From NCBI GenBank assembly GCA_943788755.1, contig CALSRM010000003.1:124001-188000 (forward strand): 64,000 nucleotides of DNA, read 5' to 3'. The notes beneath the pieces were generated by a model. The model had not been told where the DNA came from. It worked only from the letters and a program-made list of their open reading frames with translations, and searched no databases. The translations under genes were made by a program, and so were the position numbers. This document shows, one piece after another, positions 38,748 through 40,802 of this stretch (the stretch's first letter is position 1; the number at the start of each line of letters is the position of its first letter). The DNA comes from an uncultured Flavobacteriales bacterium. GTDB taxonomy: Bacteria > Bacteroidota > Bacteroidia > Flavobacteriales_D > Parvicellaceae.

Positions 38748-38859
38748 ATCAAGTCATTCAAGGTTGTTTTTGCTCTTTTCTGATAGCTCTAGAGATCGAA
38801 TGACTACTGTATTCGGCACGCTTATTGCCTTTATTTGGAAAACCTTTTAAAATACAGGT

Positions 38860-39672
38860 ATGAAAAATTTAATCCTTATTGCAATATCCCTATTTACTAT
38901 TGGCAATGTAAATGCTTCTGAAGGCATATATACCTTTCAGAATAATACATCAGCCTTCGAATTCAGAAAAATAGCAAACAACTCTTTTGCTGTTGGGGAA
39001 AAACTTACTTATATTCTGCATTATGGCTTTATAGATGCAGGAAGAGCTACGCTTGAAGTAGAAGAATGCGACAAGAAGATAAACGGGAGAAAATTAGTTC
39101 ATGTTATTGGTAAAGGAGAAAGTTTAGGTGCATTTAACTGGTTTTTTAAAGTTCAAGATAGGTACGAGACATATTTAGATGCTGAAGGAATGTTCCCTTG
39201 GATGTTTATTCGTAGAGTTCACGAGGGAGGTTATGAAATAAGTCAGGACTACACTTTCTACCAGCACAAAAAAGAAGTGAGTGATGGGAAAAAAAAATTT
39301 AATGTTCCACATAACATCCAAGATATGATTTCTTCCTACTACTATGCAAGAACGCTAGATTTTTCCAACGCTAAAATTGGAGACCTGTTTGAATTTAACA
39401 CCTTTATGGATGGAGAGATTTTTCCTTTGAAAATAAAATACTTAGGTAAAGAAACTATTAAAATTAGAAAAGGAAAATACCAGTGTATTAAGTTTTGCCC
39501 AGTAGTACAAACAGGAAGAATTTTTAAAACGGAAGAAGATTTACAAGTATGGATTTCTGACGATGAAAACAAAATTCCACTATTAGCAAAGGCCAACATA
39601 CTATTTGGTTCTATTAAAATGGAGCTAACTAAACATGAAGGGGTGAAAAACCCTATTTCAAAAATAAAATAA
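38860..39672 (+). CDS. DUF3108 domain-containing exported protein
   Basis: A 270-residue protein with a signal peptide (MKNLILIAISLFTIGNVNA). The mature part matches DUF3108: FAVGEKLTYILHYGFIDAGRATLEVEE, YETYLDAEGMFPWMFIRRVHEGGY, FNTFMDGEIFPLKIKYLGKETIK and LQVWISDDENKIPLLAKANI. DUF3108 proteins are beta-rich periplasmic proteins of unknown function, widespread in Bacteroidota and Proteobacteria. It follows two unknown exported proteins in the same direction, 112 bp downstream, and is followed by the 45-residue protein and its sigma-54-like promoter. Confidence 0.88.
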   Translation: MKNLILIAISLFTIGNVNASEGIYTFQNNTSAFEFRKIANNSFAVGEKLTYILHYGFIDAGRATLEVEECDKKINGRKLVHVIGKGESLGAFNWFFKVQDRYETYLDAEGMFPWMFIRRVHEGGYEISQDYTFYQHKKEVSDGKKKFNVPHNIQDMISSYYYARTLDFSNAKIGDLFEFNTFMDGEIFPLKIKYLGKETIKIRKGKYQCIKFCPVVQTGRIFKTEEDLQVWISDDENKIPLLAKANILFGSIKMELTKHEGVKNPISKIK

Positions 39673-39675
39673 GTT

Positions 39676-39690
39676 TGGCACGCAACTTGG
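39676..39690 (+). promoter_or_regulatory. Sigma-54-like promoter (TGGCAC-N5-TTGG)
   Basis: TGGCAC (39676-39681), five bases, then TTGG (39687-39690) match the sigma-54 consensus TGGCAC-N5-TTGC except that the last base is G instead of C. The -24 GG and the -12 element are exactly 12 bp apart. It lies about 36 bp before the ATG of the 45-residue protein. Confidence 0.5.
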
Positions 39691-39694
39691 ATTG

Positions 39695-39709
39695 GTGTAT
39701 AGTATACAC
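39695..39709 (+). promoter_or_regulatory. Perfect 15-bp palindrome downstream of the sigma-54-like promoter
   Basis: GTGTATA-G-TATACAC, a perfect inverted repeat of 7 bp with one central base, spans the expected start of transcription. It may be an operator or an RNA hairpin at the 5' end. Confidence 0.4.
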
Positions 39710-39725
39710 TATAAAAACTACTAAA

Positions 39726-39863
39726 ATGAATGAATTAAAAACGAAATACGAAGCAATAAAATCATTAGCAAAAGAAATGATGAAACTAGGAAATATAGCT
39801 GAATACTTCAGATTAATAAATGAAGCGGCTGCGATAAATAAACTAATGCTCTCAGCTAGGTAA
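39726..39863 (+). CDS. Small 45-residue helical protein, unknown
   Basis: The protein starts at MNELKTKYEAIKSLAKEM and ends NKLMLSAR. It is a single amphipathic helical hairpin (KTKYEAIKSLAKEMMKLGNIAEYFRLINEAAAINKLMLS) with no Cys and no membrane segment. The frame remains open upstream to 39675, but that part covers the promoter-like sequence, so the ATG at 39726 is preferred. I do not know the family. The promoter elements upstream and the clean helical composition make a real gene likely. Possible roles include stress response or a small regulator, but nothing in the sequence decides. Confidence 0.6.
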   Translation: MNELKTKYEAIKSLAKEMMKLGNIAEYFRLINEAAAINKLMLSAR

Positions 39864-40036
39864 GTAAAAGTTTATATAATTTCTTTTAAAGAAAGGGAGA
39901 GCCAATTAGAAGTCTCTTTCTCTATGCCATAATGTATATTTATTTGTTCGGATCGACACAAATAAAATAAACTCTATCTACCACCTAAAAATCACACTTT
40001 CCAATAGTTGAATAACAAAAATTATTGAGTAAAAAA

Positions 40037-40066
40037 AAAGGGCTACTTCTTAAGAAATAGCCCTTT
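40037..40066 (-). terminator. Rho-independent terminator, bidirectional
   Basis: A stem of 15 bp with one G-T type pair (40037-40051 with 40052-40066, essentially no loop when fully paired). It is flanked by an A-run at 40031-40036 and T at 40067-40068. It lies 18 bp past the end of the lipocalin-like lipoprotein gene. Confidence 0.8.
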
Positions 40067-40083
40067 TTAAAATTATGTTTATC

Positions 40084-40770
40084 TTATTCTTGAGTCAAAA
40101 CTATAGCAGCATCCGCTGTTGAAGAGGATGTAGTTGTTCCATTTGAATCAGTAGAAGTAGAAGTAGAAGCACCCACTTGAGACAAGCTCAACTCTTTACT
40201 CTTGCTTTCAACGATTAAGAATGTTTCAGCGTATTCACCTTCTGAATAAGTTTGAGTATCTGTAGAAGTATCTGTAGAAGAAACTCCTCCTACCGTATAC
40301 GTACTATTAACAGTAGAACTCGATGATAACGTACTCATTACAACTCTTTCATTTTTCTTTAAATCAGCGGTTTTGTTCTTTCCTACAAAAGACCAAGTTC
40401 CTGATTCAGTTGTTACATTTTGATTAGAAAAAGAATATGTAGGTTCAGTTACGGTAAAAGTCATATCAATTATTCTTGTCCATGTACCATCTTTTTCAAT
40501 ATTCCAGGTAGCTGCAGCTACAGTTCCATTTTCAGTAGAAGTTACTGCTCCAGCAGATGATGATGATGAAACACTAGTAATAGTAGAACCATTTAAAGTC
40601 ATTACTTCCGTATTCGTTACTGAAGGATTCCCGCTAGTTTGAGCATAGGTTGTACTATATGAATTAATAGTCCACTCTCCTGAAAGCTTACCTTTATTTG
40701 ACTTACTGCATGACGACATTGTTCCAGCTCCCAAAGCAGTAACAAATAATAAAATTAATGTTTTTTTCAT
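40084..40770 (-). CDS. Ser/Thr-rich lipoprotein (lipocalin-like)
   Basis: From the Met ten codons into the frame (MKKTLILLFVTALGAGTMSSC) the protein has 228 residues and a lipoprotein signal. The -7 box at 40795-40802 overlaps the earlier Met (40797), which excludes it. The mature part begins LSGEWTINSYSTT, as in lipocalin-like Bacteroidota lipoproteins, with later strands NIEKDGTWTRIIDMTF, SGTWSFVGKNKTADL and ETFLIVESKSKELSL. Long Ser/Thr stretches lie between (SSSSAGAVTSTENGT, SSTDTSTDTQTYS, STSTSTDSNGTTTSSST). The family role is unknown. A strong terminator follows. Confidence 0.7.
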   Translation of the reverse strand: MKKTLILLFVTALGAGTMSSCSKSNKGKLSGEWTINSYSTTYAQTSGNPSVTNTEVMTLNGSTITSVSSSSSAGAVTSTENGTVAAATWNIEKDGTWTRIIDMTFTVTEPTYSFSNQNVTTESGTWSFVGKNKTADLKKNERVVMSTLSSSSTVNSTYTVGGVSSTDTSTDTQTYSEGEYAETFLIVESKSKELSLSQVGASTSTSTDSNGTTTSSSTADAAIVLTQE

Positions 40771-40794
40771 TTTTTTGTTTTTTTTGTTAGGGCG

Positions 40795-40802
40795 CAAATA
40801 TA
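40795..40802 (-). promoter_or_regulatory. -7 box (TATATTTG) of the Ser/Thr-rich lipoprotein gene
   Basis: An exact TAnnTTTG match on the minus strand 24 bp before the chosen start. It decides against the upstream Met at 40797. Confidence 0.45.

Follow-up and report, generated by a model that had tools for sequence, protein, structure and literature searches.

A conserved sigma-54-type promoter before a family of small, predicted two-helix hairpin proteins in Flavobacteriales and their relatives

The window analysed here, a stretch of 64,000 nucleotides from an uncultured Flavobacteriales bacterium, contains two adjacent genes on the forward strand: one for a DUF3108 protein (38860..39672; PF11306, E 1.1e-47) and, directly downstream, a gene of 45 codons (39726..39863), identified as a conserved gene for a two-helix hairpin protein by homology, dN/dS and an AlphaFold2 model. 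Right after the DUF3108 stop codon (39670-39672) begins a predicted sigma-54 (-24/-12) promoter, TTTGGCACG-N4-TTGG (39674..39690, forward strand), whose N4 is CAAC (TTTGGCACG-CAAC-TTGG). An earlier note had described a TGGCAC-N5-TTGG element with exact spacing before the 45-residue frame, and the window sequence bears this out: TGGCAC occupies 39676-39681 and, after five bases, TTGG occupies 39687-39690, with GG at -24 and G at -12 at the fixed interval. The site departs from the consensus at -12, having TTGG instead of TTGC; natural sigma-54 promoters tolerate other bases in place of this C. If base 39690 is taken as -12, sigma-54 geometry predicts transcription to start (+1) at 39702 on the forward strand. 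This base is also the central G of a perfect 15-bp palindrome, GTGTATAGTATACAC (GTGTATA-G-TATACAC, 39695..39709), which the note had rightly placed at the expected start and which is discussed below as a probably incidental feature. On the reverse strand, convergent with the small gene, lies a Ser/Thr-rich lipoprotein-like ORF (40084-40770) with a weak resemblance to lipocalins (Pfam E 0.034).

The strict form of the promoter, TTTGGCACRN4TTG, has a single match in the window, where shuffling gives a mean of 0.04, and a single match in the 3.17-Mb genome (one forward, none reverse; none for the reversed-pattern control). The looser form TTGGCAYN5TTG is neither rare nor enriched, with 8 matches in the genome versus 18 for the reversed pattern, so that a single such site means little unless comparative evidence supports it. 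Most other promoters of the window had been noted to be of the TAnnTTTG type, and this holds, the element being found in 17 of 34 upstream gaps versus 3.6 after shuffling; we take this element to be the usual Bacteroidota -7 element. Two side observations belong here. The 1.5-Mb genome G047 (family f12) carries 12 TTTGGCACRN4TTG sites versus 1 in the control, several of them nearly identical, which may represent an expanded regulon or a repeated element. In the genome of the window, TTGCAACGGCAGTTGC occurs eight times, exactly 237 bp apart, at G000:C3:528675-530349, a tandem array whose unit would correspond to 79 codons if coding.

Used as a query, the 45 residues of the small protein found a match at E<=1 in 26 of 60 relatives, a few of them by chance; the weakest single-sequence matches, such as L024 and L025, lie inside long ORFs and are chance hits. 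A profile search matched 69 of 249 genomes of the order at E<=0.1, and 55 of these matches, short ORFs at about E<=3e-4, were accepted. With a wider profile 61 of 396 genomes of the class matched at E<=0.1, many of the weak ones by chance, and 20 new members were accepted. Finally, 35 of 392 genomes drawn from the whole phylum matched at E<=0.1, of which the convincing ones comprise two genomes from the home order and five from a single other family in the same class; in most of the examined genomes outside the home order the profile search did not detect the family. Homologues with a name (13 loci) come from Flavobacteriales, Cryomorphaceae and Crocinitomicaceae MAGs and one genome labelled Chryseobacterium, names that point to this part of Bacteroidota for the window too. 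Three loci of one genus (L013, L014 and L015) share TAGTTAGTAGGTTAAATAAAGGT downstream of the small gene, the only genus to do so among the loci compared. Family f8 contains two 32-residue versions (L107 and L108) with perfect sigma-54 promoters that the profile sees only weakly, and may hold further members that it does not see; none appeared in 40 other f8 regions with the promoter pattern. These 40 belonged to a promoter-first search of 60 fetched regions away from known small genes, the other 20 coming from f1 and other families, and no further small ORF with the core motif was found in the 60. Among the 40 strict-pattern matches fetched from f8, 19 fall inside one coding sequence, presumably hemE.

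The 79 homologues of the final set are 41-52 residues long (median 47) and have net charges of +1 to +9; Cys is present in five and Trp in one. G22 and Y27 are invariant (79 of 79), A15 occurs in 76 (Ser in 3) and M19 in 76 (Leu in 3), and 88% of 49 aligned proteins have a basic residue at position 12. Among four congeners, changes fall mainly at third codon positions and dN/dS is 0 to 0.11 (L003-L005: 11 synonymous versus 5 non-synonymous codons); judged from these codon changes, the small gene appears to be under purifying selection in the congeners. Four other close pairs gave dN/dS values of 0, 0.08, about 0.36 and 0.48, the signal being less clear in the last two, which have few changes. 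AlphaFold2 predicts a two-helix hairpin with helices at residues 2-21 and 24-44 and a mean pLDDT of 92.9, in keeping with the unknown helical peptide of the earlier description, which can now be assigned to a conserved family. Neither the small protein nor the members of its family (49 tested) matched Pfam or NCBIfam at the cut-off; one of the 49 matches an unnamed PHROG (E 4e-4), and a sequence search of the PDB returned one match, at E 0.19. A fold search gave no match at E<=0.001, the best being E 3.1 and all above 3, so that these matches inform us of the hairpin shape only. A mobile origin was considered and rejected, since one query against phages and one against plasmids, the latter with a relative's protein, found no match.

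Homologues were gathered by protein similarity first, and the DNA upstream was read afterwards. To count the promoter we chose 80 loci at about E<=1e-3 in short frames, with no filter for GGCA or a core motif, and dropped L095 because its upstream DNA reads N; matches inside long ORFs (for example L034-L036 and L180), L037, which lies inside a 943-aa ORF, and the weak 32-residue matches L107 and L108 (E 0.03-0.05) stood outside it. TGGCAY-N5-TKG is present within 110 bp upstream in 73 of the 79 homologues with readable upstream DNA, at a median of 49 bp from the ATG (range 38-84). Four of the others have degraded promoters (CGGCAC in L063 and L076, TTCGC at -12 in L094, TGGTAC in L096), and in two, L164 and L169, no similar site was found within these 110 bp. 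As a control, 183 other ORFs of 150 aa or more were taken from these loci, any ATG frame on either strand being admitted and some frames being spurious; none is preceded by the motif. We also built a logo of 50 rows, requiring the core motif and, at loci with several candidates, keeping the ORFs with GGCA upstream. It was anchored on the -24 GGYAY, which is therefore invariant by construction; the T and G of the -12 element are invariant at their fixed distance, the flanking bases vary, TTT usually precedes the -24 element, and the base after TTG is T in 27, A in 10, C in 8 and G in 5.

The promoter is retained in G+C-rich genomes (L166-L179) and stays with the small gene across differing genomic surroundings. 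In the fetched flanks of the 79 loci the neighbours are nadD in 34, DUF3108 in 7, serS in 4, rluB in 3, an NtrC-type regulator in 3, an FAD oxidoreductase alone in 3, ffh in 2 and udk alone in 1, and 22 loci have none of the neighbour signatures searched. A search of 61 non-redundant upstream regions for 8-mers and gapped inverted repeats gave no convincing sign of a shared activator-binding repeat: the best gapped inverted repeat occurs in 3 regions, where shuffles reach 2-3, and the commonest 8-mers, in 12 regions versus 7-8 in shuffles, are A-rich runs. At the level of sequence, comparison establishes both the protein family and its conserved promoter.

The earlier note had suggested RpoN control of the small gene and had proposed looking in the genome for rpoN and enhancer-binding regulators. 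An rpoN gene is present, as nearly everywhere in the order (240 of 249 genomes, and all 176 of the better ones), and two full enhancer-binding AAA+ activators are found (E 3.7e-73 and 1.1e-67). One (L110) is an NtrC-type response regulator; the other (L111) has no receiver domain and is flanked by what we take to be miaB and an lptE-like gene. Seven weaker activator matches, above the family cut-off, cover the domain only partly, and we take them for other AAA+ proteins. With rpoN, the activators and a promoter kept across differing surroundings, the proposed RpoN control is strongly supported by sequence comparison, and we infer that RpoN is used here.

Sites of the same type precede other genes. 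The DUF3108 gene has its own, TCGGCACGCTTATTGC (38813..38828, forward strand), 47 bp before its start, which makes it a likely co-regulated neighbour; in this position GGCAYGCTTATTGC is kept in four congeneric species, three species of another genus have a related, altered site, and in one more genus (genome G012, L215) a consensus site precedes the DUF3108 gene by 50 bp. Among the eight TTGGCAY-N5-TTG sites of the genome, those outside long frames include one 60 bp before dnaK, one 165 bp before lon and one 50 bp before a thioredoxin-like gene; the site 74 bp upstream of an OmpH/Skp-like gene overlaps a 507-codon stop-free frame, and three (L119, L122 and L124) are within long frames. Each of the three listed matches to TTGGCACGNNNNTTGC with one mismatch stands before a gene: one lies 47 bp before DUF3108, one belongs to the small gene, and one lies 59 bp before an FKBP isomerase. 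Allowing up to two mismatches gives 131 matches in the genome versus 90 in the control, mostly noise. Chaperone and protease genes of this genome (dnaK, lon, FKBP and OmpH-like) are among those preceded by sigma-54-type sites. The dnaK frame itself (L125, G000:C3 near 1904943) stops after 84 codons, the HSP70 sequence continuing in another frame and breaking again, probably because of assembly indels.

Across the order, TGGCAY-N5-TKG occurs 25-55 bp before the dnaK start in 157 of 249 genomes, and in 126 of 176 better ones, where base composition would lead one to expect about 0.06 genomes of 249; the reversed-pattern control for dnaK, which gave zero, is uninformative because reversal also reverses the dnaK codons. 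A site lies 131-171 bp upstream of lon in six relatives. As the pattern is not enriched and several sites lie in long frames, the regulon, which we infer from these sites, rests on their position, and its support from conservation is confined to dnaK, lon and DUF3108.

Other explanations of the locus have to be weighed against sigma-54 control of a functional protein. An ordinary vegetative promoter, TTGGCA-17-TATAGT, matches 10 of 12 positions at 39675-39703, overlapping the sigma-54 site, which would make the sigma-54 resemblance accidental. Three such matches were found in a 651-bp stretch where three are expected, the supposed -10 positions are not conserved whereas the sigma-54 -12 is, and the element enriched in the window is TAnnTTTG, so that we give this explanation hardly any credence. 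Better, if still very improbable, is the proposal that the palindrome is an operator at which a repressor or activator sets the start site. In its favour, the perfect 15-bp repeat has its centre at the predicted +1 and is found in the sister species L002 as well as in L003, which is the window. It does not occur in L004 and L005, the other two of the four congeneric species, nor in the rest of 51 non-redundant leaders in which L002 stands for the window; the only other perfect repeat with 7-bp arms there is an unrelated one in L096. The window contains 32 perfect inverted repeats with 7-bp arms and loops of 0-3, and the share of 35-bp stretches with such a repeat, 0.9% overall and 1.6% in A+T-rich stretches, makes the palindrome only mildly unusual after the fact. 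With a start at its centre, moreover, the RNA would hold only half of it. The palindrome had been offered as an activator site or a structured 5' end; non-conservation and the chance rate led us to reject it as a conserved operator or RNA structure, and on these comparisons it is probably incidental and looks like a coincidence. Of the triad of promoter, palindrome and ORF that was to be sought in relatives, promoter and ORF do recur together, while the palindrome was seen, among the leaders checked, in two of four congeners only.

The transcript rather than the protein could be the functional product, a sigma-54-dependent small RNA in which the ORF is incidental. Its transcription unit is short, and a 3' sequence is common to three species of genus g2. 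By a loose test of our own, 45 of 79 members have a hairpin with T's after it in the 200 bp downstream, the window's copy not being among them. Against this speak the dominance of synonymous changes among congeners and the near-invariance of G22, Y27, M19 and A15 described above, and a comparison of 38900-40800 with Rfam gave no match at the gathering score; we regard a small RNA as highly improbable. A more serious rival, though still an unlikely one, accepts the protein and makes it a feedback regulator of the sigma-54 system, binding RpoN or an activator and damping the response. The small gene has a sigma-54 promoter of its own, and in family f7 it follows an NtrC-type regulator resembling one activator of the window's genome (L020, L021 and L023); such a neighbourhood is however confined to 3 of 79 loci, nadD being the commonest neighbour (34 of 79).

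We consider it likely that the small gene encodes a sigma-54-dependent two-helix hairpin protein of a proteostasis or envelope-stress regulon, which probably serves as a binding adaptor or modulator. Under this proposal the RpoN-containing RNA polymerase would wait as a closed complex at 39674-39690 to be opened by an activator, either the NtrC-type response regulator or the activator beside the lptE-like gene, and transcription would start near 39702. The sigma-54 promoter would thus drive a gene whose predicted product is a soluble, basic, antiparallel two-helix hairpin of roughly 45 residues. The sites before dnaK, lon, the OmpH/Skp-like, FKBP and thioredoxin-like genes and DUF3108 make expression under protein-folding or envelope stress most likely. 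The protein would then most likely act by binding, as an adaptor or modulator that serves a chaperone or protease: given the constant promoter, the chaperone and protease co-targets and a fold too small for obvious catalysis, a stress-induced binding protein is the most economical account. Taken on its own, the adaptor role is the least certain part of this proposal and is rather doubtful.

A bolder version, to which we lend only tentative credit, is that hairpins of 41-52 residues (32 in one more family) form, in several families of one class, an almost unvarying target of a stress regulon under sigma-54 and a dedicated proteostasis adaptor or modulator, the same regulon controlling dnaK and lon in Flavobacteriales-like bacteria. 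If true, the protein would be the counterpart of a small heat-shock regulator in bacteria that rely on sigma-54 for their stress response. Teaching usually presents sigma-54 as a factor for nitrogen and flagella; for a large group of Bacteroidota, the comparison made here points to a role in protein-quality stress. Being a very constant sigma-54 target in its clade and part of an apparent protein-quality regulon, the small gene is more interesting than it first seemed. It offers a testable reporter of RpoN activity where the role of RpoN has hardly been studied, and a small-protein family whose nearly invariant residues A15, M19, G22 and Y27 can be dissected.

How does the locus compare with known systems? 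Among protein families, DUF6435 (PF20027) is likewise short, and one member aligns over profile positions 11-52 of 53; two members score 17.1 and 16 bits versus a cut-off of 26.9, and at E<=0.01 the profile matches 5 of 49 members, but not the window protein. Membership was rejected, as the scores stay below the gathering cut-off. The C-terminal (UVR) hairpin of UvrB, 1qoj, is similar in length and hairpin shape (TM 0.94/0.92) but differs in having a Foldseek E of 5.8 and 14% identity, and UVR membership was also rejected, no Pfam UVR match at E<=0.01 being found among 49 members. With known sigma-54 promoters the small-gene family shares TTGGCAC(G/A)-N4-TTG at fixed spacing, in a genome with rpoN and AAA+ activators, whereas at -12 most members have T, A or G in place of the C, which 8 of 50 show. 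Within the library and terms of our literature search, no account of the small protein was found, and the portions of PMC12316311 (PLoS One 2025) considered here do not mention the family. In those portions, predicted sigma-54 promoters are enriched before DnaK, GrpE and GroES in Flavobacteriia, ATP-dependent proteases, COG0466 among them, are likewise predicted targets, and GrpE and GroES of named Bacteroidota are stated to be sigma-54-dependent. Chaperone control by sigma-54 in Bacteroidota has thus already been predicted in print, and our results agree with that regulon as far as those portions describe it, sites before dnaK and lon being seen directly here; compared with it, the small-protein family would be the new element, an additional and very constant target.
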